Assembly (NCBI GenBank): GCA_024811115.1
Contig: JAKOGH010000763.1
Span: 124,001-188,000 of the forward strand
DNA from: Terana coerulea
Taxonomy: Eukaryota > Basidiomycota > Agaricomycetes > Polyporales > Phanerochaetaceae
Direction: 5' to 3'
DNA: 64,000 nt
This document shows positions 14,325 to 57,817 of the stretch, piece by piece (position 1 is the first letter of the stretch; each line of letters begins with the position of its first letter). Position numbers and translations under genes: made by a program. The notes below the pieces were generated by a model. That model ran no database searches, was not told the DNA's origin, and saw only the letters and a program-made list of their open reading frames with translations.

Positions 14325-14640
14325 GCCTGAACAGTGCGCAGTGCATATGTTTATTGATACCTGTTATACCCCGTCTCTGTGCACGCTTATGGTATTTCTT
14401 CCCGAATAATCAGAGAGTTTCCCTTGCGTGGTGATACCGCGCGCGCGAGGTATTTACGCGAAGATGAGACAGACACTGCCTATGTGCTGCCGCGTGTCGC
14501 TTTGTCGCAGCCTGCTCGCCCCGTGTCCGCGGTCCGGGTCGCCTCTTCGTCCTGCGTCCTCGGGAATGCGAAGCGTCCTGTGCATCCGGGTGTCCCGATC
14601 CGAGCCGCGGCGCAGACGCCACAAGCGAACCTTCCAGTGT
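14325..14640. other. 3' spacer of the MDR gene
   Basis: Between the MDR stop and the first palindromic repeat unit. It presumably contains the 3' UTR. No gene was recognised. Confidence 0.4.
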
Positions 14641-14679
14641 AGATACGACGTCGCCATACTCACCACCCGCTCTTTTCTC

Positions 14680-38802: not shown

Positions 38803-38809
38803 ATAACCA
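38803..38809 (+). promoter_or_regulatory. TATA box (TATATAA)
   Basis: TATATAA lies 112 bp upstream of the ATG at 38915. Confidence 0.6.
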
Positions 38810-38914
38810 GGCTCCTCGCCGCAGATTCTCCTCACAAGTTCACAGCCCTCTTACCCACCCCAACCACCCCACACCTTTTTACGAATCTTTTACGACTCCC
38901 AACAACCAATCACA

Positions 38915-39277
38915 ATGGTCAGTCTTTGTTCTGCACTTGTTTAGGGCGCCGACGCTGACTCGAGCTCTCGCTGTAGGGTGCCATCTTCTCTGCTATTGGC
39001 GGCGCCATCAACGCCATCATCTCTGCTATCGCCAGCGTGCTTATGATCATCGTCTCAACCATCGTGACGGTAAGCCTCACCTTCGCGCACGCACAAACAT
39101 TGGAACTAACATATCCCTCACTAGATCATCGTGACCATCTTCGACGTCATCTTCGACATCCTGTGCTGCAACTGCTTCGGCGGACGCACTCGTCGGACGG
39201 GAACGCACAGATACAACTTCGGGCGGCGAGGGAGGAGCAGCGACGTACTAAGGGTAGTCGCGCGTGCTAGGCTCTGA
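38915..39277 (+). CDS. Small membrane protein with ATG-only first exon
   Basis: About 82 residues. The first coding exon is just ATG (38915-38917); exon 2 is 38977-39069 and exon 3 is 39125-39277. The product is a continuous hydrophobic stretch, GAIFSAIGGAINAIISAIAS then VLMIIVSTIVT, a second segment IIVTIFDVIFDILCCNCFGG, and a basic Arg/Gly-rich tail. Small proteins with this Gly-Ala-Ile-Phe-Ser-Ala start and CCxCFGG palmitoylation-like motif recur in Agaricomycete genomes, to my knowledge without known function. The Cys cluster beside the membrane suggests lipid modification (inference). Confidence 0.75.
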
Positions 39278-40146
39278 TACACGAATCTCCATATACCCAT
39301 CGACGTTCGTCAACCCTTCGACATATCGTGTCAATATTATACCCCGCCTATAATTTCTTGATGTTGTAATACACGCACTGATTTCGTACCTTGCGAACTG
39401 GCACTCTGTGAGAGAAGTGAGAATTACCGGAAGCTTTGCCTTGGTTGTTGTGGCGGTCTCTGGGCGTCCCGCCCTCTCATTGTAAGCGCATCACGGAAAT
39501 TGCCGACACGTCATCTTAAAGCGGCAACGTTTTGCACCTTGTCTTCACTGATCAACCAAAACAACCTGGAAAAATCACCGTGAAATGCCTGAGATGCTTT
39601 GGTATACTTTTTTATTTAATTTTTATTTTTGCGACAGATGTGCGGTCGGGATCTTCAGAATAACGTCCTTCTGCCTGAACACGCAGTGACCACAAAACGG
39701 GAAGGACGCGGTCAGTAGCCCGAGGAACCTCTGACAAAATACCAAGTCCCCGCCTTGAAGCTTGCAGGAGTATCATTATATGCCAACATGGAAGCACTTT
39801 GCCAATCACTCGACCCACCGCTGGCTTTCAGGCTTTCTTTGGCCGAACATGGCTCGATTTGGAGTTGCAGCTACTTCTTTGTGTGTCTAGATCGAGATTT
39901 GGCCATGGCTCTTCGACCACCGCCCTACCGTTGGGCCTCCACCCCTTGTTAGGTGCGCTTCTTAGCCTTTTGTGGAATGATGCGTACATCTGCGCTTGGC
40001 CCCGAGCTGCCGCACTGTATCGCCGTCGGCGGCATAAATACCTGGCCGCTCGAGGTTGAACCAGCCTGAACGGCGTCGTCCCCTCTCATTGTCGCCCCCA
40101 TCCCTCCCCGTGTCACCGGCCACCCATCCTCCCCTCTCGAGCGACA
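39278..40146. other. Intergenic / kinase promoter
   Basis: No gene was recognised. A GC-rich 5' leader lies directly before the kinase start. CGGCATAAATACCTGG at about 40029 holds a TATA-like ATAAATA roughly 110 bp upstream of the ATG. Confidence 0.4.
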
Positions 40147-42290
40147 ATGCAGGGTGCGACCGTCCAGTCGCCTCCGTTCGGCTACCTTTCCCCGCCCATC
40201 GACGGCTGCGACGCCTGCTCGGAGGACGGCGACGCGCTCCAGACGCCTTTGACGGAGCACGACGCGCACGACCAGCCGTACGCCGTCTACCACCAGCATC
40301 AGCACAGCTTCTCGCACGACCTGTTGCTCACCTCGGAGCATGTGCCCCACCACGGCCCCGACGCGAAACCTGAAGCGGGCCACCGCCAGAGCCGCGACCC
40401 ATTCTCCGCTCTTTTGACCCCCTCCGCCTCCGAGAAGCTGCGTCTCGCGCGGCCCTCCGTCGGCGAGAACGACTCGTACTTCCCGTCCTTGGCCTTCTCG
40501 CCGCCGCACGTGCTCGACCTGGCGAACGCCTCGCTCGAGTTCGACCCGTTCGCGGCGTCGTTCGCTAGCTTCACCTCCGTCCGCAACCCCCGCTCCGACG
40601 AGGACGCCTACGCGCAGGACACGCAGGCCTACGATGCCTCGCCGGACACCTCCCTCGACTCTATCACGCCGCAGTACGCCGGCAGCGACTCGAACCCACC
40701 TGGTGACACCTCTGGAGACTCGCTCGATCTGCCCGCTCTGCCTTCGCTCTCTGTCTCTACTGATTCTCTGGGCGACTTCGACTTGGGCGGCCGACTCCTC
40801 CCCGTCTCTCCTTCTCTCGCCTGCCTCGTATCGTCCTGGTGTTCCCCACGCGCCTCTGTCCGAGAACATGCTACACCACAAAGGGAGGATGTACTCGCCT
40901 CGCTTCCCTGCGGATCATGTTCTCAACCCATACTTCGTTGAAAGTTATCAGCTCAGTGACGAGCTCGGCGCAGGAGGCTACGGATTTGTGATGACCGCTC
41001 GGCAGCGGTTCGAGGGCTACGAAGTCGCCGTGAAGTTTATTATCAAGGATAAGGTGCCTGACCATGCGTGGTGGGATGACGACATGCTCGGACGTGTACC
41101 GACGGAAGTCATGATCATGTCTTTGGTTGAACACGAGAACATCGTGAAGTGCTTAGACTTGTTTGAGGATAATCTGTACTTCTACTTGGTGCGTTGCTTT
41201 TTTGTGCGTGGTGATATTCCTACTCATTGTATGCTACAGGTTCAAGAGCTCCACGGCACGCCCTGGGTCTCCAGCAAGACAAGGAAGACGAAGCAGGTCA
41301 CTGCCCCTGGGAAACTAGTCGTCCCTTCACCGACTTTGTCCCCGCCTTCCCTGACGCCGTCTCCGTCGACGGACACCGATGCGTCCTTGCCGCCGACTCC
41401 GATTCATGTCTCCGTGATGCTTGCGAACAGCCCTACACCTGGGACCAGTAACAAGCTCGAGATGGATCTCGCGTCTTCCAGCTCGAACAGTGGGCTTCAA
41501 GTTCCGACGTATGGTCCGGAAGCTCTGAAGGACGTCGGCATTCAGCAGCAGTGTGGGCCTCAACAGGGATACCTCCAGCCTCCGGCTCCTCGTCCGAACT
41601 TCTCTCGGCGCGCGTCGTACGATTTGTTCGAGTGCATCGAGCAGAGCAAACACAAGCGCCTGTCGGAGAATAATGCACGATACATCTTCGCGCAGGTCGT
41701 CGAGGCAGTTCACTACCTCAGTAGCCAGGGCATCACCCACTGCGACATCAAGGACGAGAACCTGGTTATCGACAACGAGTACAAGGTACGCCTTCTCATT
41801 ATATACGATGATTTCCCTTTGCTCACTTCGACTTTCTCGGGATAGGTCAAACTCATCGACTTTGGCAGCGCCGTCGTCGCCGACCCATGCGTCCCCGCGC
41901 CGTACTACACGCTCTTCTTCGGCACGACCGCCTACGCATCCTCCGAGATCCTCCTCAGGCAGCCCTACCAGGCCGCGCCCGCGGAGATCTGGACGCTCGG
42001 CGTGCTGCTCTCGTACCTCCTCACCGGGCACTCGCCGTTCCCGACGGAGCAGGACGCCGTCGACGGCCGCATCGTCGTGCGCGAGCGCGGCAACTCGGCG
42101 AAGCTGAGCCGCGCGGCGCTCAATCTGATGGCGCGCTGCCTCAGAGCGCGACCCTGCGCGGCGGGCGGACATCCGCGAGGTGCGCGGGCACCGGTGGTTG
42201 CTCGGTGCGCTGGAGCGCGAGGGCCGGGACGCCGAGGGGCGCGAGGTGAGGATGCGGAAGTTATTTTATTCTATCATACGTGCGGTATAA
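40147..42290 (+). CDS. Ser/Thr protein kinase with HCD in place of HRD
   Basis: About 676 residues. A long Ser/Asp-rich N-terminal region precedes the kinase domain: YQLSDELGAGGYGFVMTARQ (Gly loop), EVAVKFI (VAIK Lys), PTEVMIMSLVEHENIV (alpha-C Glu), then an insert of about 130 residues rich in Pro/Ser after VQELHGTPW. The catalytic loop reads GITHCDIKDENL, with Cys replacing the usual Arg; KLIDFGSAV is the DFG motif; FFGTTAYASSEIL replaces a standard APE; and GHRWLL closes the domain. The domain order and KDEN resemble PAS-kinase/CAMK-like enzymes, but no PAS domain is visible. Exons: 40147-41188, 41240-41785, 41846-42290. Extra bases at GG 40789-40790 and CC 42139-42140 break the frame. Confidence 0.9.
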
Positions 42291-42447
42291 TTTCTGGCGG
42301 TGTGCGCCGCATCGTTTCGTGTCTTTTGTTCTGTGCGTTTCACGGCTGTGGAGACGCATTTCAGAGTTGTCGGCATTGGATCGCAAGCAGTACTAGTACT
42401 AGTGTAGTTTTCTCGAGGTTTTTCGAGCATGTAATGTTCCGTCACCG

Positions 42448-42765
42448 GACTAGTTAGTGTTATAGTGTACTTAGTTCTTAGTGTAATGTAGTTCTACAAC
42501 GTGTTGTTTACTCGGGCGAGACTCCTTGGTGACGTCGGGCGCTTTTGTTTCTTCTTGGCACGACCTACCTCCTCCTCACGACCCATACCAGGCAATTCGG
42601 GCGACGTGTTGTTGCAGACGCATTGATGGGCGTTCGCGCTGTTTGATGGCGAGCACCTTCCGCGATTTTTTGTGGAAGTTATCGTTAACTTTGCTTGCTG
42701 GGGTCGGCAACGATGTCAAGACTAGTTAGTGTTATAGTGTACTTAGTTCTTAGTGTAATGTAGTT
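42448..42765. repeat. Exact 46-bp direct repeat downstream of the kinase
   Basis: 42448-42493 and 42720-42765 are identical over 46 bp (beginning GACTAGTTAGTGTTATAGTG). Each is followed by CTTGGTGACRTCGGGCGCTT, 31 bp nearer in the second copy. Full identity in non-coding DNA indicates a recent duplication. Confidence 0.85.
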
Positions 42766-43803
42766 TCCTTGGTGACATCGGGCGCTTGGATTGACTTTGT
42801 GGCGTTCGGCAGTTTGCGAGCTCTCTTTTCGGGCGGCTGTTCATCGTCGCTTGCTTGCTCTTGGCAACGATGTCACCTCTACTACTTGAAGTTTGCCCCA
42901 CCACACCACTAATAGCAACCCCGTCATGAAATATCACGACCCATCGCACCAGCTCAATTCTTACTTTGAGCCTTGAGACCTCGTCGTGATGGTGTTCGCC
43001 ACTACGTGCTGACGTGTCCGAATGATATTCTGCGAGAGCGCATGTGTATATGCCTGGATCACAGCATGTGCAGTGAGTGGTATGTCAAGGACCAAGGCAT
43101 TAGCAGACTTGTTTGGCTGACCTTTAATCCAGTTGCAAACCTTCTAATGGACGTCTTTGCCATTTTCAGGGTGGAGAACAGACTTACGAAGGGGATGCTT
43201 CACGCATAACATACGCGCTATATCTATTCGACGACGGACCGCGCTTCTGCTGTCATCTCACTGCATTTATGCTAAATGCTTTTTGGCAGCCAGTATGTCC
43301 ATCGTCGCGGCCATGTCGGACAGAGCAGCCAGATGTATGCTACTCCCTTCTCTTACATGCACTCAGATACTCACTCGATGTAGAGTTGGTGAAGTGCGGC
43401 CTTGCCAGGTGCTCATTTCAACACTGGACAGGATTTATCGCCTATCTCGCAGCCTCGGTAGCATGCTACAGCGCCTTCAGTGTCAGTCCAGCATTCACGG
43501 CATCCGCCCTCATGATCACGCGCAGCACCTATCATCACTCCAGTAGCGCACAAGATATGAAGGGACTGCAGCAATCCAAGCTATACTTAGATAATCGGAG
43601 GTGAATTGGGGCCACGAAAAGGGAGAAAGAATTTCCGAAGAGTACGTCCGCATGATGGTTCACATGAGCTTGAGAAAGTGGTTAATTCTTGCTTTATTCC
43701 TAGAGACTTAAAACGCGTCGAGGCGATTGCCATCTCATCCTCAGTGCATCCTGCGCCTCATCCTCGAAGTCTATATTGCAGGCCCACCCCAACCGTCCTC
43801 ACT
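42766..43803. other. Intergenic, upstream of the peptide cluster
   Basis: No gene was recognised. It contains one copy (42796-42818) of the dispersed motif TTTGTGGCGYTCGGCAG that recurs in and around the peptide cluster. Confidence 0.4.
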
Positions 43804-44087
43804 ATGGCTCCCATCCTTCAAGTCATGTCTGCTACGCTCGCGGTTGCGCTTGCCGTTATGAGCGTTAGCGCTGCGCCCACACCCGCCGCGGTTTCGAAGC
43901 GCAGTAAGGCACTCCCGTTACGTCAAAAGCATCGTCTTGTCGTTAATCCCGCTCGAATGTAGACCCTGTGGCCGAACTTAAGCAACGGGACACCGACGTT
44001 TGCATCCCTCAGTCCGGCTTATGGTACGTTTTGGATGTTTCACTACTTCTCGGACCGTTCAACTTACAGCCATGTTTTAGCTCTTAG
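43804..44087 (+). CDS. Secreted peptide precursor, copy 1 (55 aa)
   Basis: Three exons: 43804-43903, 43963-44023, 44081-44087. Exon 1 encodes a signal peptide (SATLAVALAVMSVSAAP) and ends in SKR, a Kex2-type site. Exon 2 carries a second basic site (KQR) and then DTDVCIPQSGL. The last Cys codon is split TG|C by the second intron, and exon 3 adds only Ser and stop, giving the end CIPQSGLCS. Cleavage at both basic sites would release a short peptide with two Cys, probably forming one disulfide. All these genes share the phase: the first intron follows codon position 1 and the second follows TG. The function is unknown. Confidence 0.6.
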
Positions 44088-44908
44088 ATGTGCTCATCTC
44101 TGCGTTGCAAGTGCCCGCTTGCAGGTCACGGGAGTCACAGTAGAACACATAACAAGCAGACGCCTGTTGTCTCAGCGGATAGCCCTTGTTATCTACCGCC
44201 TAACCCGACTGCCCGTAGAGTTCGATGTTGCAATGCGAGATTGGTCCATCACTCCACTTGTCCTCTGGGCACCTCTCACAAGCCGTGCGTGCCGTGCACG
44301 GGATGGCAGGTTGTCTACTCCCTGTGCCGGTTTCGCATGAAATTTGGGCAGTGAAACGGCTAAGAGGAGGCGATTTCAAACTGTGAGTGTCATCAAGATG
44401 CGACAAAGCGACAGCTCTCGGAAACGAGATGCTGCGCTGCCTTGCAAGGTTTAATTCACGCTGGACGACCGGAATGACCATCACGGGTGAGCGGACCCTC
44501 CCATCATCGTAATTCATGTGTTTCTGATAGATTTCGTAGGGACCGTGTGGTGCTGTCCGGTAAACGTACGGTTTTAGACACCCCCAGTACGTACCACTGG
44601 GGCAACCGCATCACAAGCTGGTATACCACAGAGCCCCACGCTCACAAGCGAGCGCAGTGTATCGCACGGACAGGTGATATTTTACTCCGTTATCAATTGT
44701 TATCGCAAGCCGACGGGCAGAAAGCGGCTGTCAGACCTCGACAGCCATTCGTGGTCTGGTGGGATGCTTCCACCGGGCATTGCTCACTGTGTAGAAAGTG
44801 AGCATCAAGAATCAGTTAAAGTGGTAAGATAAGACGAACACACCTCCACGAGCGAATCACCCTTAGTCTCGCACCCAACCCCTTGCACAAGCTTTGTCTT
44901 TGCCCAGA
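44088..44908. other. Peptide-cluster spacer
   Basis: No gene was recognised. If exon 2 of copy 1 were joined to 44071 instead of 44081, a longer open frame would run to about 44340, but it shows no similarity to the other copies. Confidence 0.35.
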
Positions 44909-45124
44909 ATGCTCGCGATCTCGAACCTTGCCAAAGCTGCCATCGTTCTTGCCCTGTCGACCATAGTCCTAGCAGGCCCGGCTCCCAACTGCCTGAGAGG
45001 TACGCGCATCGGTACTTAGATTACGGGGTTAGCTCACCTATCGCACTCGTACGGCAGAGTTCCCTGACGGCGTCGTCAAGAGAGTGCCATGCACTTGCAT
45101 CACTGAAGATGGTGTTACAATCTG
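44909..45124 (+). CDS. Secreted peptide precursor, copy 2
   Basis: Exon 1 (44909-44999) is a signal peptide (KAAIVLALSTIVLAGPAP); exon 2 (45058-45124) reads EFPDGVVKR then VPCTCITEDGVTI and ends in the split TG. The third exon is uncertain. The acceptor ending at 45163 gives Cys-Ser as in copies 1 and 6, but the next codon is AAC instead of a stop, so the frame runs on for about 50 residues. Either the stop was lost or another acceptor is used. The C-x-C plus terminal Cys arrangement matches copies 3 and 6. Confidence 0.5.
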
Positions 45125-46031
45125 GTGAGCAAGCCAATGTATTGAATCCGAAGCGAATCGCAGTTCTAACAGACTTAAAGTTAGCAGACACGGTCCTACT
45201 TGGCTTCGAGCATGGTTCGTGGAGGGAAGAGGTCGAGTTCGTATTTGCGCCGTTGCGGAGATGTTTGCTTGGCTTTGTGGCGCTCGGCAGCTTGCGGTTA
45301 CTGTTAGCGCCGTACTGTGACTTCCTCCTTTACCACGACAACCACCACACCTCATACATCTCCGTTCGCCGAGGAACGCTATGCATTTACTCCCATCATC
45401 GTATCATCGCATTCAGGCCGATATGGACTCTGGTTTATGAGGGTCTGCTCAACATATCTTCGTCGGTCGCTGCGAGCAGTTGTGACGTGGCAAGTACTAT
45501 GTGGTTCGACTGCTCGAGCCGACGCCAAACTGCTCAAGAAGGCAACGCCGCCTTCAACAGAAGAACGAACATCAGACGAATCTCCGTTTATTGGCTTTTC
45601 TATGAGAGAAATGTGAGGCCTCGAACACTATTCAAGCTGTCAGGGAGGTACTGATAATGAAGCCTTACCGCTCTCAGGTGCAGCACGACCGTGCGACGCC
45701 TGTAGCGCACTGATCCTTGGGGGCCATTTCTTGATATCAAGGCTGTTTAGAGTTTGCGGTTCTCAGCAGATGTTGCTCTGCAGAGCACTGGTGACAACGC
45801 AGCTCCGGCCGCGTGCGTTTGCACGCGGTCGTCCAGAGCCTAATGCACCCCTGAAAACACGGTACATTCTCTTATCTCATGATAACGACCCACCAATGCT
45901 CAGTTAGCAGAATTAAATGCCGTAATCTCACTGCGGTAAGGCACACCAGGATGAGATTCACGGCCTGTCTCATTCCCCGTCGATGCCTGGCTGAGCATCA
46001 CCGCAGTGAGTACATGTCGACAGGAACTGGA
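45125..46031. other. Peptide-cluster spacer
   Basis: No intact gene was recognised. It contains another copy of the dispersed TTTGTGGCGCTCGGCAG motif at 45274-45296. Confidence 0.35.
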
Positions 46032-46038
46032 TATAAAG
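46032..46038 (+). promoter_or_regulatory. TATA box (TATAAAG)
   Basis: TATAAAG, 88 bp upstream of the copy 3 start. Confidence 0.6.
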
Positions 46039-46119
46039 CCACGCTAACAATTTGCAGGTACCCTAAAATTCCAAAGACTTTCGTCTGATACACCGCTACG
46101 CTCCTCGCACATAATCAGC

Positions 46120-46380
46120 ATGGTCGCTCCTCGACACCTCATAATCGCTGCTCTCACCATCATGCTTGAGGCCGTAGCTGTCACAGCTGCACCCACCCCA
46201 TGTCCTGTGGGTACGTGTCATGGCTATCCGAGTGTTTTGGGTGGAGTTGATCATAGTACTCTTTACTATAGATTTCGTGAGTGGCGGCGAGAAGCGACAG
46301 CTACTCGTCTGCCCGTGCCTCCATGATGGCGGCTGGTGAGTGTGGTCTGCTTCCTGAATTCAGGTATCCCTTATAGCTAA
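46120..46380 (+). CDS. Secreted peptide precursor, copy 3
   Basis: Exon 1 (46120-46210) encodes a signal peptide (LIIAALTIMLEAVAVTAAP) and CPV. Exon 2 (46272-46335) reads DFVSGGEKR, then QLLVCPCLHDGG, and ends in the split TG. The acceptor at 46376 completes Cys and stop (TG|C TAA), giving the tail CPCLHDGGC after the Lys-Arg site. That intron is only 41 nt; other acceptors would give Trp and a few extra residues. The family pattern favours Cys. The predicted mature peptide is about 13 residues with three Cys. The function is unknown. Confidence 0.6.
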
Positions 46381-46887
46381 CAGATAACGCCAGCCCATCG
46401 TGATAGCAGGTCAATATTGCTCCTATGCGCCCATTTCGTTTAATCGGACAAGTCAGAGAAGCCGTGAAGCGGGATGATTTTAAGTTCAAGCCTGATCAGT
46501 CCGAAACTTGTGCTTGCATAGAGATGTAGAATATAGTGTAGTGCGTCGTGAAATGCACATACTAGGGGATACCACTCACTCCTTAGTGTTGTCGGCAGTC
46601 ATCCGAGGATAGTGCGTCAATACTAGTACGCGGCGCCAGTGTCAATGAGGCTTGCGCGCGCACTCTACGACCACTTCCGAGTCGACTCGGAGTTAGTTGA
46701 GGCTGCTTCTAGGAATTTGCATGATGGCTCACACGGTGATAGTGCCTGGTATGAAGCCGCAGTCAACTTCGCACGATCACACATTGTTGTAAGTAATCAC
46801 TCTGCCGGCCTTTCCAACAAGTGCACAGAGACGCCTGATCTTATACGTGATCTCAGCTAGAGGACATATTGTCGTTAGGCGAACGCC
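46381..46887. other. Peptide-cluster spacer
   Basis: No gene was recognised. An open frame at about 46645-46860 has no signal peptide or family motif. Confidence 0.35.
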
Positions 46888-46894
46888 TTATAAG
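46888..46894 (+). promoter_or_regulatory. TATA-like box (TTATAAG)
   Basis: TTATAAG, about 107 bp upstream of the copy 4 start. Confidence 0.5.
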
Positions 46895-46994
46895 AAGTGA
46901 GAGCACGCTTGTGGCTCGCCATCCGTAGAAAGCATCCCTTCCGACACGCACGCAGTAACTTCCACCCCTTGACAATTCTCTTCGCCCAACTGCG

Positions 46995-47279
46995 ATGTTT
47001 GGACTAGCGACTGTCACTAAAATGACCATAATTATCGCCCTGGCTGTCGGGGCGTCAGCGCTACCCGCTCCGACTGGTCTGGCACGAGGTGAGTATACCA
47101 AGCTATTAGCTGTTGGGCGGGATATTCTTATCGACCACATAAACACGCTAGGTTTCCCAGAGATCGCCGAGAAGAGGGAGCCTTTTGGTCGTTGCACCAT
47201 GCTCCCCGATGGCTCATTCCTTTGGTAAGAAAGCGTTTTATCTGTTGTGCACACAGTCTACTCACGGATCTTCAGTTGA
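46995..47279 (+). CDS. Secreted peptide precursor, copy 4 (56 aa)
   Basis: Exons 46995-47088, 47152-47224, 47276-47279. Signal peptide (MTIIIALAVGASALPAP), then GFPEIAEKR and EPFGRCTMLPDGSFL, with the last codon completed TG|T followed at once by TGA, so the protein ends in Cys. Cleavage after Lys-Arg would release a 16-residue peptide with two Cys. This copy shows the shared three-exon plan most clearly: the whole third coding exon is one base plus the stop. Confidence 0.65.
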
Positions 47280-47773
47280 CATCTCCAAAGGATGGCGTAC
47301 AACTGAAAGACGACTTACTATGTTGCCGAATGCAGTCGGAAAGGGGAAGGGAGGCTTCAGAAGCAATCGTGGAACAGCAGAGGCCATATAGCACCGCTAG
47401 TAGCGTAATAGGGCAACACTTAATAATCGTGAAGTGTGTGACGCTAACATCTACACAGAGAACGCGGTTAGTCACGAATAATGCAAGGCTGCAGCTTTGC
47501 ACTCACCATCAGGTTTCATGGATGACATTTGACTTGCGGTGCCTGAGTCAGCCTGACACTATCAGAGATCCGTAGATGACTGCTGTACTTATCATACTAT
47601 TAGACGCGACGATGCCATGCAGTAACAACGATTATGCCTGTTCTGACGAGCAGTTGGTAGAGAACTAATTGTGTGGGTCTTGTGGTACAAAAGCAGCGAG
47701 ATGTGGATAGTACTTGCTTCAAGTCAAGGCATTTCCTCGCACCTCCCGTCTCCTCAAACCATCAAGAGATCCA
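47280..47773. other. Peptide-cluster spacer
   Basis: No gene was recognised. The right end resembles the region just upstream of copy 6 (CTCAAACC..CATGGTGGCTCTGCA), showing that copies 5 and 6 share upstream DNA. Confidence 0.35.
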
Positions 47774-47994
47774 ATGGTGGCTCTGCAGCATATTGCGGGT
47801 GTTTTCCTCGCCGTCATTCTTGGCGCCACGGCGATTACAGTTTCACCGCAAGGTAGATAATCCGGGTACCTCCCTATATTCTGCTTCGCTGAACGTAGCA
47901 AACTCCAATCTCAGCTCCACGGGAGGAGGCCATCGCGACCATGGCTATCAACAAGCGGGAGCCAACGCCCACAGAAGGCTACTTGCCCCCTTGA
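47774..47994 (+). CDS. Secreted peptide precursor, copy 5 (Cys-free, 52 aa)
   Basis: Exons 47774-47852 and 47915-47994. The leader starts MVALQHIA, identical to copy 6, with the core GVFLAVILGATAITVS. Exon 2 gives APREEAIATMAINKR and then the tail EPTPTEGYLPP before TGA. The intron phase and the Lys-Arg site are conserved, but there is no Cys and no third exon. If a base is missing in the C run before the stop, the frame would continue, so this may be a truncated read. As written it predicts an 11-residue acidic, Pro-rich peptide. Confidence 0.5.
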
Positions 47995-48449
47995 GCGGCC
48001 AGAGCGTTGATTCCTAGTATATACCTTTCTGGAGCCATTCCTTCCCCCTCCTTACGCAACTTGACCGCAATAGGCAGGACGCTTTAACAGCCGCCATTAT
48101 CTTGGGTATAGCAAATGCCGCATAGTTGAGGAGGAGGGTTAGTGACAAGATGTGTAAGATCGCAGCTTTGCGCTCACGTTGAGATCCCACGGGTGACATG
48201 TTGTCCCTGACGCCACCACATAGCCCTCGCTTAGTATGGGACCAAGTGCTTGAATTATGATGTTACTACTCGAGTCGAAATCCAATCTTGACACACGTCA
48301 AAGCTAGTGGCAGTCCCGTTGTTAGGCAGCTTATTCCGAAGTGAGCACGAGTGTTGAGACTTAAATGACCCCGAACTACGTACAGCGTTGAGCCCTCCAG
48401 GTTCCTCTTGCCCTGCTTTCTCGAGCTCAAACCCTCCGCAGAACTCATC
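47995..48449. other. Peptide-cluster spacer
   Basis: No gene was recognised. It should contain the copy 6 promoter, but no obvious TATA box is present. Confidence 0.35.
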
Positions 48450-48753
48450 ATGGTGGCTCTGCAACACATTGCGCGATTTGCTCTTGCCTTCCTCTTTGGT
48501 GCCAAAGCCGCTGGCGCCATGCCGCGCTTCTGCCCGCTCGGTGCATACTTCACGCATACTTAAACCAACGCTGCATGGCTGACCATAGTCGCGGTGTTTT
48601 AGAGAAGAGAGACGACATCGTGACTTCTGTCTTCGTGAGGGCTGTGCCTCCAGGCTGCCCTTGCCTCATTGATCCACCAGAACTTTGGTACGTACCTTCG
48701 TGTTATTGTCTCTTCTCCTTCTTACACACATTGGAAGTGAGCAAAGTTCGTGA
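48450..48753 (+). CDS. Secreted peptide precursor, copy 6 (60 aa)
   Basis: Exons 48450-48540, 48603-48687, 48747-48753. Leader MVALQHIARFALAFLFGAKA, then RFCPLEKR, a Lys-Arg site, and a tail ending PPGCPCLIDPPELCS. The terminal Cys codon is split TG|T, and exon 3 adds Ser and stop, exactly as in copy 1. The CPCL motif is shared with copy 3. The predicted mature peptide is about 28 residues with three Cys. Confidence 0.65.
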
Positions 48754-49573
48754 GCCAAGAGGTTTCCCGTGGACGGTGCGAGGCTTGACGGATTAGAAGG
48801 TGGTTGGCGGCCACAGACCGGCTTTCGATATACTGGATGCGTTGCTCAGTAGCTAACTGCTGCATGAATCCGAGCGAACAGAACTACCTGGAAATAGCAT
48901 CAGTCTCATGGCCATAAGCATCATGATCACGCACGATGTCAGAAGTGAATGCTCCCAGCCTCAGTGGTGTGGCGGCAACTGAAACGACTGCCTTCCGGCA
49001 AGTCGCTCGAATTATGGCATCTGATCGAGCAATAGAAGAGAGACGACGCACGTTAAGAACGGTTACAAGATAAGGGTGCGTCGCCTATACAATTGGCGCT
49101 ACATCATATTGTCCTTGACATCTGCTCCGGTTTTCAAGGAGTTTTGATGACTATGGCGACGGCCTGCGGTGAGGCACAAAGTGCTCATCGCTGTAATCGC
49201 GTATGCATGTGTTCCTGAAAGCTTAATCAGTACCGATGGTTGCTGAACGCTAACTTGGCCGCAAGCACTCACTTTAATGTTAAAACAGTCACCTCCTCCG
49301 CGATAATTGGCGCTTCGGAAAAAGTGCCATCTGAGATACACGGCACCATCATTCCATGCTCGGCTATGCTCTGAGGCATTGCGTAATTGCCTGTACAACG
49401 ACGCCCGCGACACCACGATTCCGACACGCTGTACGCCGCATATCGGAGCAGCAGTGACCAACATAATATAGCACTGTTTTACTACGCAGAGATCTGTTAT
49501 GAAACGCAGACGACGAGTTCAGAATGATGTCGGTGCTGGAGCGCTGTTCTGTGGTACCGCCGCTGTAGAGAGG
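48754..49573. other. Peptide-cluster spacer
   Basis: No gene was recognised in either strand. Confidence 0.35.
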
Positions 49574-49580
49574 ATAAAAG
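49574..49580 (+). promoter_or_regulatory. TATA-like box (ATAAAAG)
   Basis: GGATAAAAGG context, 82 bp upstream of the copy 7 start. The same ten-base string precedes copy 8 at the same distance. Confidence 0.65.
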
Positions 49581-49655
49581 GTCTAAGTGTTAACACAACA
49601 GCACGCAAAAAGCTCACCTACCTTCGTCCCTATCCACCCAATCACTTGCTCCAGC

Positions 49656-49960
49656 ATGACAATGATTTTCCGCTTCTCGGCAGCCTTGGCTGTTATTATT
49701 GTCAGCGCGATGATGGCTTTACTTGTCGCGTCCTCGCCAGCTGCGCTACAATGTGAGACAAGTACGTTATCACAAATGTTCCACGCAAATAAGAACTTAC
49801 TCGATGGCAGTTGAAGGAGGAGGAGTGCTTCCCCGGAGCTGTTGCGCTACCGTGACTGCCACCCCAGGCGGTGCGCTCGAGAAACGCTGGTGGGTGCACA
49901 ATCACCGTGCCAATGGTACCGATTCAATCGCTAACCTTCTGCAAGCATTATCATAGTTGA
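49656..49960 (+). CDS. Secreted peptide precursor, copy 7 (CC/EKRC subfamily, 62 aa)
   Basis: Exons 49656-49761, 49811-49889, 49957-49960. Signal peptide with core AALAVIIVSAMMALLVASS, then QCETSI. Exon 2 reads EGGGVLPRSCCATVTATPGG followed by ALEKR, and the split codon TG|T then TGA gives a terminal Cys directly after Lys-Arg. Compared with copies 1-6, the Cys-bearing block lies before the basic site, so cleavage would release the peptide from its C-terminus. Exon lengths (106 and 79 nt) are identical to copy 8. Confidence 0.65.
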
Positions 49961-51292
49961 GCCAACTTCAACATGATCGGCAATGATGAAGAGCGACATA
50001 CCATACGTTCAATACCGTGCACAGTAAGGCAGTACTGCGCAGCGGCTGCGTGCCACGTCACGATGTAACAGATCCATTCGTAGTTAGCCTACAGCAACCA
50101 TTGCCTGCTGTTCAGTCCACAAAACTTAGTAGGCGTTGAATGCGTCCCTATCGGGCGTGCTGCGCTGAAATCGAAAAGTATTGAGAGTGGTGGTCATTGG
50201 TCGAGGTTTACTCAGTTTTCGGGCGTCCCTTCGCAACCTTGTGGCGCTCGGCAGCTGCTCGGCACCCGGCAAGTACCGAACACTGTAGTCGACCAGTTGG
50301 CAAGAACATGTAATGAAACTGCACTTGGTCAAAGTAAGAAGAAGCTTTAATACGAATTATACAGACGCAAAATGCTTCCTCCTCTCATCGAGGCGAGAAG
50401 CGCCAGAAGTCTGCCCTTCAGGGACTCATAAGTGTCAGAGGTCCTTATCCATTTCGGCAAGAGCCATCACGGCAATGCACGAGACCCCGTGCACCAGGCG
50501 ATGCCTCAGGCTACCACATCCGATCACTCTCAAACGCTTCACAGCATGGCCTATATAGCCCTATGCTCTGTCGGTGTTGCCAAATTTAATCTCGGCTCTG
50601 ACTTTTCTACTGTGGTAAGTCACCAGCTCTACTCATGAGTCACGGACTAAGCCAGGCGTCGGTAGTGTGACTCTCAGGTTCATCTTGCTCAGTAGCGGGC
50701 CATCATACGTGGCATTTGCCGATGGCCGTACTCAACTCAATGAGTCTGTTATGCGTCTCAGTACCGTTCGTTGGAAATGAATGTCGGCGCAGCGCCCATC
50801 CTCCGTTGTTGCGGTGTTTGAAACATGGCTTTCATCACGCTGCGCTCGGCCCTACGGAACATATGATCGCCTTGAGAGTGCCTGTGGGCGTGTACGAAGA
50901 GAATGATACAGGCCTCGTGTGTTGTAGCGGGTACCTGACATTGACGTAAGTAATACAATCATCATTCTAATAGTTCCGGGCTGCGAGTAGATGCTTATTT
51001 CCCTCTGTTACAGCATCTGAAAGCACTGCCTTCCGCTCTCCGTCGTGCATTTCAACGACCCTTGCGGTGACCGGAAATTGCAGATGCTTGTGATATCGTG
51101 CCTGGAACCTCCGCGCGTACCTGTATTGTGTACGCCACTCGTCCCGCAAAATACGGTGTGCTTTATATCCGTGATATCGGAGCCGGGTCGCGTATTGATC
51201 GCGCCTATGCAGCCGCGAATTCCAATACACAATTCATTCCAGCGAGAATGCCAGTACTAGAAGCGTCTATACAGCCACGTATGGGGAAATGG
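49961..51292. other. Peptide-cluster spacer with possible remnants
   Basis: No intact gene. A stretch at about 50363-50430 (acceptor-like TTATACAG, then ..RGEKRQKSALQG) looks like an orphan exon 2 of the family. A frame at 50716-50949 has a weak leader and a VCC motif followed by GTAAGT. Both may be decayed copies. Confidence 0.35.
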
Positions 51293-51300
51293 ATAAAAGG
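51293..51300 (+). promoter_or_regulatory. TATA-like box (ATAAAAGG)
   Basis: GGATAAAAGG context, 82 bp upstream of the copy 8 start. Confidence 0.65.
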
Positions 51301-51374
51301 CAAGACAGTACTAACAACTGCGCTGCAACAGCTCACCGATCATCCACTGCTTCGCTGAACTTCGGCCCAACACC

Positions 51375-51687
51375 ATGACCGCCATTCTTCGCTTCTCCGT
51401 GTCCATGGCCGTTGTTGTGCTCGGCACTATGATGGCTTTGCTCGTGTCATCTGCGCCATCCGGGATACACTGTGACTCCAGTACGTGAAGATACGATTTC
51501 GCAGAGGTACCATGCGCTGACTTGCTCTAGTTGAAGAAGGTGGAGACTTCCCTCCTAGCTGCTGCACCACCGTAACTGCTACACCCGGTGGTACTATCGA
51601 AAAACGCTGGTATGTATATGCGTCTGCTACAGTAGATTCAAGCCACTCACGATGCGCTGCAGCATTATCGTCGTAACGCCCAAGTAA
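51375..51687 (+). CDS. Secreted peptide precursor, copy 8 (CC/EKRC subfamily)
   Basis: Exons 51375-51480, 51531-51609, 51663-51687. Signal peptide core MAVVVLGTMMALLVSSAP, then HCDSSIEEGGDFPPSCC, TTVTATPGG, TIEKR and the split TG|C Cys. The acceptor at 51662 adds IIVVTPK before TAA. Exons 1 and 2 are the same length as in copy 7 and clearly homologous throughout. The two copies are about 1.7 kb apart. Confidence 0.65.
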
Positions 51688-53185
51688 CGCCCACTCTGAC
51701 ATACTGACCACCTTGCAATCACTTCTGCGGTGCGATATCGCGCTCCCTGTACGGCCGACGATGGGCTCCTGTTAGCTATGCTCAAATTTACCCTATTGGT
51801 TACAGTTGAAATGTGCATCCCTATGACCTTGGTTTGAATAAGATACTGCGTCGAGATTGACGTCGGCAACTGACCCGGTGCCTTCAATGCACTGACTCTC
51901 TGTGTTGAGAGTCCTTAATCAAGGAGTAGTTCATGAATATTAATGTAGTCGAAAAATGGAACATCACTAAGCGCACAATGTTCTATTTGACACTCGTTCC
52001 ATACTGTAGTGTGGAATAAAGGCCACCAGTACTAATGCTAGTTGCGAGCGAGCGGAGCGAGTGAGCATATTCCTAAGGGGCTGAGGCCGAACAAACATGT
52101 ACAAATTCACAGCACGTAGCGCCCGTGCTTTTCAACATCGCTGGCGAAGTGAGAAATATCCCTACAACGTGGCCAAATGTCACCCAAATCCTGTACCGCC
52201 TGCACCAATCGATAGGCATCGTTGGTCCACGCATTTTCGTGTAGCTTTTGTTGGGTTGTGTGGAGGTACATGCATGCTGCAGCGACTACGAGCTTCTGCC
52301 CTGCCCAAAAATCGCTGTATCAATAGGCGCTCATCCCTACCGACATGTCCCCGAACCTAGTCTGTATTTTGACGCGGGGGTCGTATGAGGTGTTCCGGAT
52401 TTGGACGCGTTTCGCTGGATTTGGTATGTTAGACGCCCAGAAATATTCGCGCGTTTTCCTATGCATTTCTCGCTCTGCTCTTGTCGTGCCCCCACCATGC
52501 AGGGCTCTTTCGACCTGCAGGATGGCGTCTTCACCTTATACACTGGTGACTTCCGACCAGGTTCTCCCTCACCTCAGCCTTCGCCACCACCGCACGTCGA
52601 CTAAGAGGCTTCAGAAGACAATCCTTTCGACAGGATCTCAGATGCCGTACCCGCGAAGGCTGCTCATCGTTCGGCCGTTTCATCATCTGGCCCTGGGCTT
52701 TTATGCTGCGGAAAAGGTCGTTCTCCCTATGCTCGCTGCAACGCTGTCGTCATTTTACACTTTCTTACTACTAGGGCAATCAGACAAGCAGGGCACACCA
52801 GTTCACCCCGGCTGTATGGCTAGAGATGATGAGACCTTGAATAGGCTGCAAAAATTCAGTCGCTTGAGCAGGATGGCAGGTCATGTTGTAGCGAGACAGA
52901 CCCATGGTGAATACTATATCTTGAGGTGTGCGTGGTGTGCTGTTCTCTGCCCACACTGACCTATAAGGCATGTGGAATAACCACCCACTAATTGCTCACG
53001 CATTCTTAAATATATCATGACACTCCCCTATGCATAATGGGCACCTCTGTACAGAAGTGAAGCACGGCGCAACTGAGTCGCGACTGCGTCGGACGCGACA
53101 AACACAGCTTGATGGATGCACGTGATGATATGATGGGATCAAACAGGAACACCTGCAACCACCCGCCCCGGTAGTAGCAGACGCT
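51688..53185. other. Peptide-cluster spacer with a possible gene fragment
   Basis: No intact gene. Around 52495-52605 one frame reads MQGSFDLQDGVFTLYTGDFR. The YTGDFR ending is reminiscent of the SNM1/Artemis metallo-beta-lactamase DNA-repair fold, but no HxHxDH motif or exon context was found, so I do not call a gene. Confidence 0.3.
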
Positions 53186-53187
53186 TA

Positions 53188-53666
53188 CAGCTGTTTCGGG
53201 TTATTATGAGAAGCGCCGTTTTTTTCTCGCGCGCGGCGACCTTCCTAAATAGGAATCTTCCGACTCTTGCCTCCCGACTTGAGTGTGCAGACCTCGGTAA
53301 CGGTGCTTATAGCAGGTACTTAAATGTTGCGAATGTACTCGTACATATATGTGCACCACTAATGCTTGATTTGAAGAGGCAAAAACATTCAGATAACACA
53401 TCCAGAGCCTGATTTGCGTACAACTAGGGCAAAATATGCATGCTGACCGGTCTTGCAAGGAGCGCAAGACTCACATACACAGAACATACCACGGAAAGCT
53501 CAGTGCATGCTGACATAAGTCATATTCCTACTATCAGTGTGTTCTGAACAATATTGAAGGGATGGTGCGTGCAACAGGCTGGGGCAAGGAGTCGGAAGAT
53601 TCCTATTTGGGAAGGTCGCCGCGCGCGAGAAAAAACGGCGCTTCTCATTATAACCCGAAACAGCTG
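53188..53666. mobile_element. MITE with 84-bp terminal inverted repeats and TA target site (Tc1/mariner-like)
   Basis: A 479-bp non-coding element. The left end (53188 onward) starts CAGCTGTTTCGGGTTAT and its complement closes the element at 53666. The arms pair over about 84 bp with only a few differences, including one extra T in a T run. The element is flanked by TA on both sides (53186-53187 and 53667-53668), the target duplication of Tc1/mariner elements. The interior (about 310 bp) has no transposase frame, so it is non-autonomous. It sits within the peptide cluster, between copies 8 and 9. Confidence 0.88.
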
Positions 53667-54463
53667 TAACAGCGTATCCGTAGCCCAAAGCGCAGGTTGA
53701 CCCGCTGTGTTCGCTGTCTGCCTCGGGGAGACTACCCGAACCTGACTCTTCCCCTACTTAAGTTATTCGCAGTACGGCAGCGCGCAGTCTCACAGGCCTG
53801 CGGTGTATAACGGCTCACAAACTGAACAAACCTCACATTCAGCAGCTCGCGAGCACGTGGCGCGACCCGCGGAACTTACATGTTAAGTAAGTACGACGGC
53901 AAAGTCGGCAGCCGGTCCAGGGTAGGTGCCAGAGGTCGTTACTTTTGATCTCACTCGCCAGACATCACCGCCCTCCGGACAGACCCCGAATACCTCTGCA
54001 GACTTCGTCACGACTTGAGACTGTTGTTGTAAGTGTACACGAACCACACAAGAACCACAGTCTAACACGGCCTGCTCTACCGTCTTTGCTCGCGCCGGAC
54101 AAAATAGCGCAGCAGATGCGCAGATATGCACATGTTTCGCTTGAAGCGAAGTCAGTGCATCGGCGGTCCGGCTGTAAAGGAGATCTGACGGTTTCGAGAG
54201 TGAACTGTCAAGATGGCTGGTCGCAGCAGCAATCAGACCCAGCAGGTGCCTGAATTCAAAGCAAGTAGCTTATCTCTCGGGACGTGGGAAAGCGAGCTGA
54301 TGAGTTTCGCAGATTGTCCCAGCCGCGCAGCAAAATCGCAGTCCTCTTTCTATTGTCGACTAACCAGCTATGCATCAATGGGTTACAGCCGGCGATGCCA
54401 TGCCGATGATGGCCTCAGTCTAGAGAGCATCTCCACATGAGTGCTCGTATGCATGATCCTAAA
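53667..54463. other. Peptide-cluster spacer
   Basis: No gene was recognised between the MITE and the TATA box of copy 9. Confidence 0.35.
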
Positions 54464-54475
54464 CATATATAACGG
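54464..54475 (+). promoter_or_regulatory. TATA box (CATATATAACGG)
   Basis: TATATAA about 90 bp upstream of the copy 9 start. Confidence 0.55.
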
Positions 54476-54555
54476 TGAGCTGGACTCTTCCAATTTTCAA
54501 GTATACTCCAGGATCTGGGCTGATTGAGCCGTTGCGCAGGAGCTCCACCTTCATC

Positions 54556-54852
54556 ATGGCCGCCACCCTTCGTCTCTCAGCATTCATGGCTTTCCTTATG
54601 CTCAGCGCAATGACGGGTCTGCTCGTCGCCTCTCGGCCGTCTCCTCAGATCCATTGCGACAGCAGTACGTATACAACCAATCTGAGTGAAGGAGGGATGC
54701 AAGCTCACCAAGCTTCAGTTGAGGATAGCGGAACCTCCCCCTAGCTGCTGCGTGACAACAACTCCCCACCCCGGTGTTATTGAGAAAGCGCTGGTAAGCA
54801 TGTACTCTTCACTATAGCGAACAAGTCACTCATACTTGCCTCAAGCATCTAA
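54556..54852 (+). pseudogene. Secreted peptide precursor, copy 9 (broken or mis-sequenced)
   Basis: Exon 1 (54556-54664) encodes a leader (FMAFLMLSAMTGLLVASRP) and HCDSS, homologous to copies 7 and 8. Exon 2 (54719-54793) is 75 nt instead of 79. As written it stops early, while the next frames still carry PPPSCCVTTTPHPG and the basic site. Two frame changes are needed, one near GG at 54730 and one in the AAAGCG before the donor. The possible exon 3 (54846-54852) would give a split Cys, Ile and stop. It could be a decaying copy or carry the same one-base errors seen elsewhere in the window. Confidence 0.5.
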
Positions 54853-55195
54853 TCCTCGAGCACGTCCTGTAGCTTATTATAAGCCACAAGATTCAAATTT
54901 TACCGTGCACAATCTGTCGCGAATCAGATATTCCTTTGGCAGAGAATATGGGAGACGAGAAGAATGCCTCGTTTCATGCCGCCTATGTGAATTCATTTTT
55001 GTGGTCTGTGTGAGCCATGCGATATATTCTTTTCTCACTGTAAGCAATAGTATTCATTCTCACAGACCGCAGACTCAACGCGATATACGCAAAGAATCAC
55101 GCAATGTTAGTCCTTGAGGGGCGTATCGAACGTTTTTGTGAATGATTTGTATTGACTATTTACTTCATACATGAAACTCTTTTGGCTTTTGTAGT
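54853..55195. other. Convergent spacer
   Basis: Between peptide copy 9 (+) and the 3' end of the kinase gene (-). No gene was recognised. Confidence 0.4.
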
Positions 55196-57817
55196 TTACT
55201 GAGCCGAATACATGTGGGCAAGCGTGCCCACAGGACTTGCGATGTGGACCTTCAAACCAGAGCTGAGGCTTCCGCGCGTCTGGCAAGTCCGGGTGAGCCT
55301 CGAGAAACAAAGTGAAGACAGATGGATACTCACATTTGAAGCGAGCGAAGCGTCGGGAAATTGGACGTCAACACTCAGAGCAGAAGAAAGCGAGACCGAG
55401 AAGATATCAGAAGGAGTAGCATCCGAGTCAGGAAGGAAAGAAACATCGCCGAGGTCCGAAAGGTCCTCGAAGTCGTGCAAGGAAGAAAGCCGAGGGGGAA
55501 AGCACGGATCGGGGCTTGCGAAGACGGAGCAAATCGACATGTCCGACTTAGCAGGGACCGCCGGAAGTACAGAAGCGAAGAATGGCTCGTCGTCGATGGC
55601 GCCAATGACCGGAGAGGGGTAAGCCTCGGTTTGAGGGGTGAGCAAAGGTCCTCAGACTCAACGCTCTCGTCGGTGGCCAAGAACGAAGAGTCGTACTCCT
55701 TTACTGGAAGTACGGATGTGGGAGGGGCCGGGGCCGGGGCGATGGGTGCAAGGGGAACGGTCATAGCGGGGACCAGCAAATCTGAGGTGAAGTCGAAGTC
55801 GGGGAAGGAAGGATCGTCTTCCTCGGGCTCATCGCCGCCCATGTAGTACCGAGGATCAGGGAAGCGGTCCAAGGAGATCGGCTCGTCCGCGGGGATGTCG
55901 AGCTGCAATGGCGCGGAGACCTTGCCAGCTGCGAGAGCCTTCCATTTGCTGACAAGAGCAGTCAGCTCAAGACGAGAAAATATAACTGCAGAGATACTCC
56001 ACATCGAGCGGAAGAACGGGTGTGACTTCAGCGTAGCAAGGGTTGCCCGCTCTTCGTGGTCCTTCTCAAAAATCTAAAGCGCGGAAACGTCAGATATGAT
56101 ATTCGCGAGCAAGAGGGTCTGGAACGCACCGTGTAGAGGAACGAGAACATCATTTCCGGAATCTCGTCATCACCGAGCCAATCCTCGAAATCTTCGTGGA
56201 TGACGTGGGCCATTGCGTCCTCAAGGCTGTGAACCTCGTCCTTGTCCCAGATTGTCTACATGCCAAGTACAATCAGTCAACTTATGGAGTAAATCTTTTA
56301 AACCGTAGTACTCACACGTCCAGTGATACACTTGAATAGTAGTGCGCCGTACGCCCACACATCGCTGGCCGGGGAGTAGTGCATGACCTGCCACACCTCC
56401 GGTGCAAAGTACTCGGGCGTTCCGGTATAGCCCTCCTTGACGCCTGCAGCCCGATTCGCCTTGAGCTCGTCGAAGAAGGTCGCAAGGCCGAAGTCGCCAA
56501 TGACGAGGTTGCCCTTCGCGTCGAGGAAGATGTTGGCAGGTTTCAGGTCGCGGTGGACGACGCCAAGCTGATGTACCTTCTGGAGGCCAAGGAGCTGCAG
56601 GGTAAACGAATGAGCAATCACGTGCGCGCGATGTAGGCAAGTTGAACGTACGAGCTGAGCAGCATAGAAAATAACCAATGGTGCCGGTAAAGGGCCGCAG
56701 TCCTCCATAAGCTCCTGGAGGTCGCCACCAGGATAGTACCGCTGGAGATATACTATCAGCCTCCCTCCCCGCAACAGGGTGAAAATACGTACCGTCACGA
56801 AGTAGAGGTGGGCATCATCCTGAAAGCTCGCGAGCATGTCGAGAATGCCGTTCTGCCCCACCACCGCCCGCAGCGCCGCCTGCTCCTTCCGCACCTGGTC
56901 TTCCCGCCCTTCCACATGGTCCTTCCGGATCGTCTTCATGGCGCACCTGAGGCCGGTGCGGCGGTGCTGAACGAGGGAAACTGCACCCCATGCGCCTCTG
57001 CCCAGGTAGTCGACCTCGACGAAGTCGTAGACCGACAGACCCTTGATGGCGACGGGCGAAGACGATGTGACTGGTGGAAGCAGAGTAGTCTGCACGCTAG
57101 GATGGATATCGTAGGAGGTGCTGATATCCTTTATAGCAGTGGTATCCACGATGGCAGAGGTAGATAGGACGACCAAAGCGTTCGTGGTGGTAGCATCGGT
57201 AACAGCGGCGGGCACATATACGGGGAAGACAGCGGACTCGAGCACAGCAGCTGTCGGCTGGACAGGCTCACACACTAGCGAGGCTGGCGCTGGGATAGTG
57301 TCGTCGGGGACCACGAAGGCGGTGATCCGCTCAGGGCGAATGGCGCCCTCGAAGAGGCGGCTGACGTGCTGCGGGGCTGATGCATCAGATCTGTAAGTCA
57401 ATACCACACTGCTAAGACGTACGTTGCGCTCAAAGAAGTGAAGTGGTTGGTTCAGCTTGACTGAGTGGTGGATGGACAGTACTTCAGGGTGGTGGACGGC
57501 TTGTCGCAGGGCTTCGAGGTAGGCGTGTTCCGTGGTGACGATGTTCAAGGTAGCCTACAAGAGCATGTTGAGAATGATCTTTTGCGAGTTGATGAGTACT
57601 TACTATATCCAGCAGCGACTCCGCGCATACCTTCTCTTCGAGGTCATGAATCGCTGTGTCCAACGCCTGCACCTCCGGCTTGACCTTCAACTTCTGTCAG
57701 CTACCTCCGATATGCCCAACATGGTATATACCTACCTCATGAGTAGTATCCTTCTTCAGCTTCTTCATGATCCTTTTGCTCCCGCAAGAACGACTTGATC
57801 TTCTTGAGGATTGCCAT
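55196..57817 (-). CDS. Ser/Thr protein kinase (AGC-like) with long C-terminal extension
   Basis: About 732 residues. N-terminal helical region (KPEVQALDTAIHDLEEKV), a Thr/Ala/Val-rich linker, then the kinase domain: VDYLGRGAWGAVSLVQHR (Gly loop), LRCAMKTIRKDH (VAIK Lys), HLYFVTRYYPGGDLQELM (hinge), QLGVVHRDLKPANIFL, GNLVIGDFGLATFF, GYTGTPEYFAPEVW and VWAYGALLFKCITGR. After it come ATLKSHPFF and an acidic, Pro/Ser-rich tail. Exons (minus): 57817-57736, 57693-57604, 57554-56793, 56741-56652, 56594-56316, 56255-56130, 56073-56003, 55948-55334, 55279-55196. Frame breaks: one extra T in TTTT 57774-57777, and one base missing in GG 55648-55649. The HPFF after the domain resembles AGC kinases of the PKA/S6K type; the substrate is unknown. 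Confidence 0.9.

Follow-up and report, generated by a model that had tools for sequence, protein, structure and literature searches.

The window analysed here is the 64,000-nucleotide (nt) stretch C594:124001–188000 of the fungus Terana coerulea, within a 48.4 Mb assembly of 896 contigs. Positions without a contig prefix refer to the window; C594 is the window's own contig, and C45, C651 and C776 are other contigs. Between 43804 and approximately 54860, nine small genes for candidate secreted peptide precursors lie in tandem on the forward strand, as a sequence-only reading of this DNA had proposed. These genes share a gene plan, part of the set has been duplicated and the reading frame is under selective constraint.

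In our gene models, copy 1 (43804–44087; exons 43804–43903, 43963–44023 and 44081–44087) encodes 55 residues; its exon 1 ends in Lys-Arg (KR), KQR follows, and the tail after KQR is DTDVCIPQSGLCS. Copy 2 (44909–45184; exons 44909–44999, 45058–45124 and 45181–45184; 53 residues) has the tail VPCTCITEDGVTIC after KR. An EKR site precedes the tail in copy 3 (46120–46403; exons 46120–46210, 46272–46335 and 46394–46403; 54 residues; tail QLLVCPCLHDGGCPS), copy 4 (46995–47279; exons 46995–47088, 47152–47224 and 47276–47279; 56 residues; tail EPFGRCTMLPDGSFLC) and copy 6 (48450–48753; exons 48450–48540, 48603–48687 and 48747–48753; 60 residues; tail DDIVTSVFVRAVPPGCPCLIDPPELCS). Between the last two lies copy 5 (47774–47994), which has two exons (47774–47852 and 47915–47994), no intron 2 and 52 residues, with the Cys-free tail EPTPTEGYLPP after NKR. 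Copies 7 (49656–49976; exons 49656–49761, 49811–49889 and 49946–49976; 71 residues) and 8 (51375–51687; exons 51375–51480, 51531–51609 and 51663–51687; 69 residues) carry CC before EKR, followed by CIIIVEPTST and CIIVVTPK, respectively. For copy 7, other exon 3 acceptors are possible, one of which would make the split Cys described below the end of the protein. Copy 9 (54556 to approximately 54860), a paralogue of copies 7 and 8, has an open exon 1 (54556–54664) and an exon 2 at about 54719–54793; TG still precedes GT, yet this exon measures 75 nt against 79 nt in copies 7 and 8, and read by the shared plan the gene is out of frame in exon 2 and stops early. It is perhaps decaying. Precursors of 50–70 residues had been proposed throughout; the eight open loci encode 52–71 residues, and copy 9 falls outside this description.

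The shared plan is most constant at its start. Intron 1 follows the first codon position (phase 1) in all nine copies, as had been claimed, with exon 1 lengths of 100, 91, 91, 94, 79, 91, 106, 106 and 109 nt in copies 1–9, and introns in the cluster span 49–63 nt. The signal-peptide hydropathy rule is satisfied by the seven three-exon copies, and by eye a Pro stands second after a plausible signal cut in every protein (APTP, GPAP, APTP, LPAP, SPQA, MPRF, SPAA, APSG and RPSP). KR is present in copies 1–8, in the form EKR in five of the nine (copies 3, 4, 6, 7 and 8), in agreement with the sequence-only reading. In seven copies (1–4 and 6–8) intron 2 splits a Cys codon in frame, with TG before the donor and T or C at the start of exon 3; each of these has a GTRNG donor after the TG, an acceptor 51–59 nt further on and a branch-like motif. 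Exon 3 then adds nothing (copies 2 and 4), Ser (copies 1 and 6), Pro-Ser (copy 3) or a longer end (copies 7 and 8), much as described earlier. Eight copies had been credited with such a split, final Cys: the count drops to seven, since there is no intron 2 in copy 5 and the frame is lost in copy 9, and the word 'final' suits copies 1–4 and 6 but not copies 7 and 8, in which nine and seven more residues, respectively, follow with the preferred acceptor. The accompanying claim of a very short Cys-bearing tail likewise holds for copies 1–4 and 6, whose tails contain two or three Cys, C-x-C-[IL] being common to copies 2, 3 and 6. A TATA-like box lies 82–107 bases upstream of the ATG in five of nine copies (3, 4, 7, 8 and 9), counted without a control run.

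The plan is rare in the surrounding DNA. Scanning both strands of the 64 kb for a signal-like exon, a phase-1 intron with a branch-like motif, an exon 2, a phase-2 TG donor and a dibasic site returned exactly copies 1, 2, 3, 4, 6, 7 and 8, all on the forward strand. Under a stricter donor rule, six of these seven loci were found (copy 1 was lost), and 400 dinucleotide shuffles of 43001–55400 (forward strand) yielded none. When the TG and dibasic rules were dropped and nine phase combinations were allowed, the window gave 11 entries: the seven copies at phases (1,2); three at (1,0), these being copy 9 and alternative readings of copies 7 and 8; and one at (2,0), at 9137, which turned out to be a relative. 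In a 58 kb control (18 kb of C594 flanks and 40 kb of three other contigs) two entries came up, one at (0,1) and one at (0,2). The scan rules were shaped on these very genes, so the result measures rarity and not an independent probability. On the plan scan and the selection results given next, we rejected chance open reading frames (ORFs).

An 11.1 kb contig, C45, matches window positions 38648–48481 at 96–97%, with about 0.96 kb extra between copies 2 and 3; it is probably the other haplotype, a recent duplication being the alternative. Between the two versions of genes 1–5, exons differ by 17 substitutions and no insertions or deletions (indels) in 825 bases, introns by 16 substitutions and 2 indels in 524 bases, and intergenic DNA by 119 substitutions and 13 indels in 4,335 bases. 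All nine introns retain their GT and AG; the first donor of copy 4 differs at +5. The exon changes comprise 12 synonymous and 5 nonsynonymous ones affecting four residues, giving a ratio of nonsynonymous to synonymous proportions (pN/pS) of 0.15 (binomial P = 0.0002); all 4 changes located after KR are synonymous, and those before it divide into 8 synonymous and 5 nonsynonymous. The proteins of copies 1 and 3 are identical on C45, copy 2 differs by one residue in exon 1 (A8F) with exon 2 identical, and copy 5 differs by two residues, both upstream of the tail. Copy 4 is the most diverged pair, with 7 synonymous and 1 nonsynonymous changes and 12 intron substitutions, and supplies a large share of the selection signal. 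Paralogues 7 and 8 point the same way (dN 0.23, dS 1.14 and dN/dS 0.21 for nonsynonymous and synonymous divergence). The tails thus look constrained between the window contig and C45, although they have strongly diverged among most paralogues. A DNA search with 48400–55400 returned no second contig for 48481–52041 or 53888–55400 among the best 40 of 107 candidates; it also missed the 81-base overlap with C45, so this does not establish that a second contig is absent.

Duplication is evident among some of the copies and extends beyond them. Copies 7, 8 and 9 are alike, as are copies 5 and 6, in exon 1, and, weakly, copies 2 and 3. The downstream flanks of copies 4 (47280–47529) and 5 (47995–48244) are alike at z = 11.4 against 60 shuffles, which suggests a shared duplication, whereas the gene bodies of these two copies fail the same test. 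The sequence-only reading had not included three further relatives. One lies within the window on the forward strand at 9137–9360 (exons 9137–9218 and 9296–9360, phase-1 intron of 77 nt) and encodes 48 residues beginning MNTLAQ, with KSAR in place of KR and two Cys near the end. The other two, C594:192338 and C594:193943, lie 13–15 kb downstream of the cluster, beyond the window. C594:193943, which begins MNSLVR and has KR followed by ADDCLGCVCPPNNPSCP, was reached by exon-1 similarity and then by the scan; 9137 was reached by exon-1 similarity and one scan entry. Intron 2 is seemingly absent from both, as it is from copy 5, so that the rigid plan described earlier holds for the phase-1 intron of the nine copies and less well for intron 2. 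In C594:192338 the signal-like stretch is followed 181 bases later by another, perhaps through an internal duplication, and the locus may be degenerate. The 150 bases upstream of these three loci are 75–89% alike.

On another contig, the plan scan alone found C651:221641 (minus strand), a same-plan gene encoding MASYTKAIALCLLVLAATVVVTAAPVPESCEENPSTDMFLKR-ACNSAFV (MASYT..LKR-ACNSAFV) and the sole phase-1 Cys-tail entry outside C594 in the roughly 107 kb that were scanned; an identical exon 1 is present at C776:2779. Genome-wide exon searches gave matches on C594, C45, C651 and C776 only, and do not bound the family because they missed the known paralogues copy 9 and copy 5. A genome-wide DNA pattern for C-x-C-[IL] gave 13 matches against 4 for a backward control; five were copies 2, 3 and 6 and the C45 versions of copies 2 and 3, and the other eight had no same-plan gene within the 3 kb around them.

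The proteins could not be assigned to a described family. Eight proteins compared with Pfam and eight with NCBIfam gave weak sub-threshold matches only, none exceeding the curated cut-off, and a known small secreted family was rejected for want of a profile match. A protein search with the family alignment produced 719 candidates, none at E ≤ 1, and one with copy 8 produced a single candidate, not reaching E ≤ 10. The database does hold related fungi, as the best matches of a neighbouring kinase show (Phlebiopsis gigantea, 38%; Phanerochaete carnosa, 33%). Compared with PDB sequences, the C594:193943 protein gave two matches, at E = 0.56 and 0.66. Titles, abstract openings and some passages of the literature, among the matches listed, describe no such family, and the earlier statement to that effect stands within these bounds.

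We consider it probable that these genes, multiplied by tandem duplication, encode prepropeptides with a single core each, and that a Kex2-type protease sets the short tails free. Exon 1 would supply a signal peptide, cut so that Pro stands second in what remains, and the chain would enter the secretory pathway; a short pro-segment would end in Lys-Arg, where the protease would release one tail of about 8–27 residues. In copies 1–4 and 6 the last of the two or three tail Cys would be completed by splicing across intron 2, and with that many Cys a small disulfide ring near the peptide end is possible. A P-domain match, as in Kex2, occurs on three genome contigs with equal score, perhaps as copies of one gene. 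The shared plan, purifying selection (against C45 and between copies 7 and 8) and the P-domain match lend good support to a family of small, secreted, dibasically processed precursors; the earlier proposal of a processed-peptide family is upheld to that extent, its details of tail and plan applying to part of the copies. Net charges of ten tails (eight from the cluster, two from elsewhere) are negative in eight, neutral in one and +1 in one; together with the Cys content, this would suit small closed peptides better than classic cationic membrane-active or lytic ones. The likely role of such secreted peptides would be to communicate or compete with other organisms.

Several observations weigh against this interpretation. 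No sequence similarity unites all nine copies, and copies 1–4 share chiefly the plan with copies 7–9. The tail of copy 5 has no Cys, most Cys of copies 7 and 8 precede KR, and the 9137 relative has no KR; the signal peptides were judged from hydropathy and by eye. The tail constraint is read from four synonymous changes, of which gene 4 has three, and the exons differ from C45 at no site in gene 1 and at one in gene 3. The introns of copies 7 and 8 look as alike (0.87 and 0.73 over gapped aligned columns) as their exons (0.68 and 0.78), which is unexpected beside a dS above 1, and the gapped alignment flatters introns. Finally, the missing homologues say little, because such searches need short shared words and tiny genes often go unannotated.

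An alternative that we regard as unlikely is that the tails are cores of a pathway for ribosomally synthesized and post-translationally modified peptides (RiPPs), cross-linked oxidatively after Kex2 release by UstYa-family enzymes encoded elsewhere. The C651 gene lies about 0.7 kb from a UstYa match, and its unchanged exon 1 on C776 also sits beside UstYa matches. The cluster's own contig has a UstYa-like gene at C594:111501–113700 (about 112.5 kb, minus strand), scoring 24.2 bits against a Pfam cut-off of 25, in which HELHC and HCLGYLRQ..C (HCLGYLRQLFLC), which we take to be the UstYa motif, can be read; it lies 20 kb from the 9137 relative, but the main cluster is 55 kb away from it. In the genome as a whole 22 UstYa matches were listed, and the window contains none of them. 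The C651 gene was met while looking at UstYa loci and is the only same-plan gene in seven stretches from six of the 12 UstYa-bearing contigs. Without the Pro and Cys rules, the scan gave eight places (6 + 2) in four UstYa stretches and none in four control stretches, but by eye these eight do not resemble signal peptides. UstYa-type genes lie near 22% of Kex2 repeat proteins, and near 6.1% in Basidiomycota, according to parts of PMC7329392; dikaritin precursors, however, have repeated, often Tyr-bearing cores, and in the cluster only the copy 5 tail contains Tyr. A single-core RiPP class of basidiomycetes, with Kex2-released Cys tails matured by UstYa-type enzymes from other loci and the last Cys set by a splice junction, would be a still bolder and quite improbable extension. 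Were it true, transcripts of copies 2, 3 and 4 that retain intron 2 would encode Trp in place of the terminal Cys, a form without the ring. With the exon plan as a guide, it can be put to the test whether single cores that bear Cys are substrates of UstYa enzymes.

It is also unlikely that the proteins act whole, as small secreted proteins with an incidental dibasic site. Copies 7 and 8 both keep Cys-Cys and TVTATPGG upstream of KR, and phlebioid fungi are rich in small secreted proteins, with 430 candidates given for Phlebia radiata in passages of PMC6540522. Against this, KR occurs in all eight open copies of the cluster, at residue 8–9 past intron 1 in copies 2–4, and in five copies the tail alone forms a Cys-bearing unit. 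Very doubtful, in our view, is a role as secreted signals of the kind represented by ascomycete alpha-type pheromones. The C-x6-C of copy 1 (VCIPQSGLCS) is spaced like the RFCHLPGQGCSK motif, KR is directly followed in copies 2, 4 and 5 by XP, which could be a STE13-type dipeptide, and two-Cys alpha-type pheromones, with one putative basidiomycete example, are described in excerpts of PMC6339444; the other tails, however, differ in Cys spacing and each precursor has a single core. Least credible is that intron 2 stays unspliced and the split Cys is an artefact: copies 2, 3 and 4 would then read TGG-TGA or TGG-TAA and end in Trp, but copies 1, 6, 7 and 8 run at least 20 residues past TGG and all seven have the donor, acceptor and branch-like motif noted above, and Trp-ended proteins as the rule were rejected because four of seven read on.

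Two weakly similar kinase genes (31% over 96 residues) flank the cluster, at about 40–42.5 kb on the forward strand and 55.4–57.6 kb on the reverse. Profile matches in the window comprise Zn2Cys6, PP2C, kinase and FAD-binding families; Rfam and tRNA scans, the latter with bacterial settings, gave no match within it. Between copies 8 and 9, positions 52041–53887 hold nested repeats: an outer element of about 470 bp is split by one of about 900 bp, which in turn is interrupted by a 486-bp element whose inverted ends measure about 87 bp; these repeats match many contigs among the best 40 of 107 candidates scored. An extra stretch on C45 (C45:6671–7262), at window position ~42766, is in part 81% alike to window 8667–8745 and is perhaps a short mobile repeat. 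At 14400–16300, where the guanine-plus-cytosine fraction is about 0.6, a stretch like AAKRGWPGLALQPHH recurs in ORFs of several frames.

Should the tails be released, fungi of this kind would possess a store of secreted mini-peptides that has gone uncounted. Three surveys of fungal Kex2-processed peptides seek repeated cores (parts of PMC6339444, PMC7329392 and PMC9769878), and would therefore miss single-core precursors whose 50–70 codons are interrupted by tiny introns. Such genes can be sought in DNA by their exon plan: a signal exon, a phase-1 intron, KR and a Cys tail.

Among known systems, the CaaX lipopeptide pheromones of basidiomycetes are likewise made from small precursors with a Cys near the end. 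Novel ascomycete pheromone precursors share these features (PMC3068285). Unlike both, the cluster's precursors have a signal-like N terminus, and none of the modelled proteins has Cys fourth from the end, the ends being C, CS, CPS, CIIIVEPTST, CIIVVTPK or, in copy 5, Cys-free. Alpha-type pheromones, as presented in parts of PMC6339444, resemble copy 1 in having two Cys six residues apart. Dikaritins and other UstYa-type RiPPs (in part, PMC9233826 and PMC7329392) have secretory, Kex2-cut precursors, as predicted for the cluster, and the C651 gene lies beside a UstYa match, but the cluster offers single cores, usually Cys-bearing and Tyr-free, and no UstYa match in the window. The Kex2-processed repeat proteins (KEPs) treated in passages of PMC6339444, PMC7329392 and PMC9769878 have a signal peptide, Kex2 dibasic sites and short secreted peptides, matched in the cluster by signal-like N termini, KR sites and predicted short peptides; they are defined by repeated motifs (at least three in PMC6339444), whereas by eye each of the eight open copies has one tail. 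The family thus fits neither the KEP nor the CaaX pattern. It corresponds in part to the Kex2-processed pro-domain (K2PP) effectors of PMC8528282, parts of which already describe the cutting of a pro-segment at a Kex2 site and name plant-pathogen effector proteins (ToxA, SnTox3 and SIX1/4/6) as examples. The K2PP search rule looks for the site within the N-terminal half of a protein, whereas by our count it lies past the middle in copies 1–8 (residue 33 of 60 to 61 of 71), leaving 8–27 residues. The order of parts is nevertheless the same: a predicted signal peptide, a short pro-segment, KR and a putative mature part. K2PP pro-segments end in KR, RR or LxxR after the signal peptide, and copies 1–8 carry KR there.

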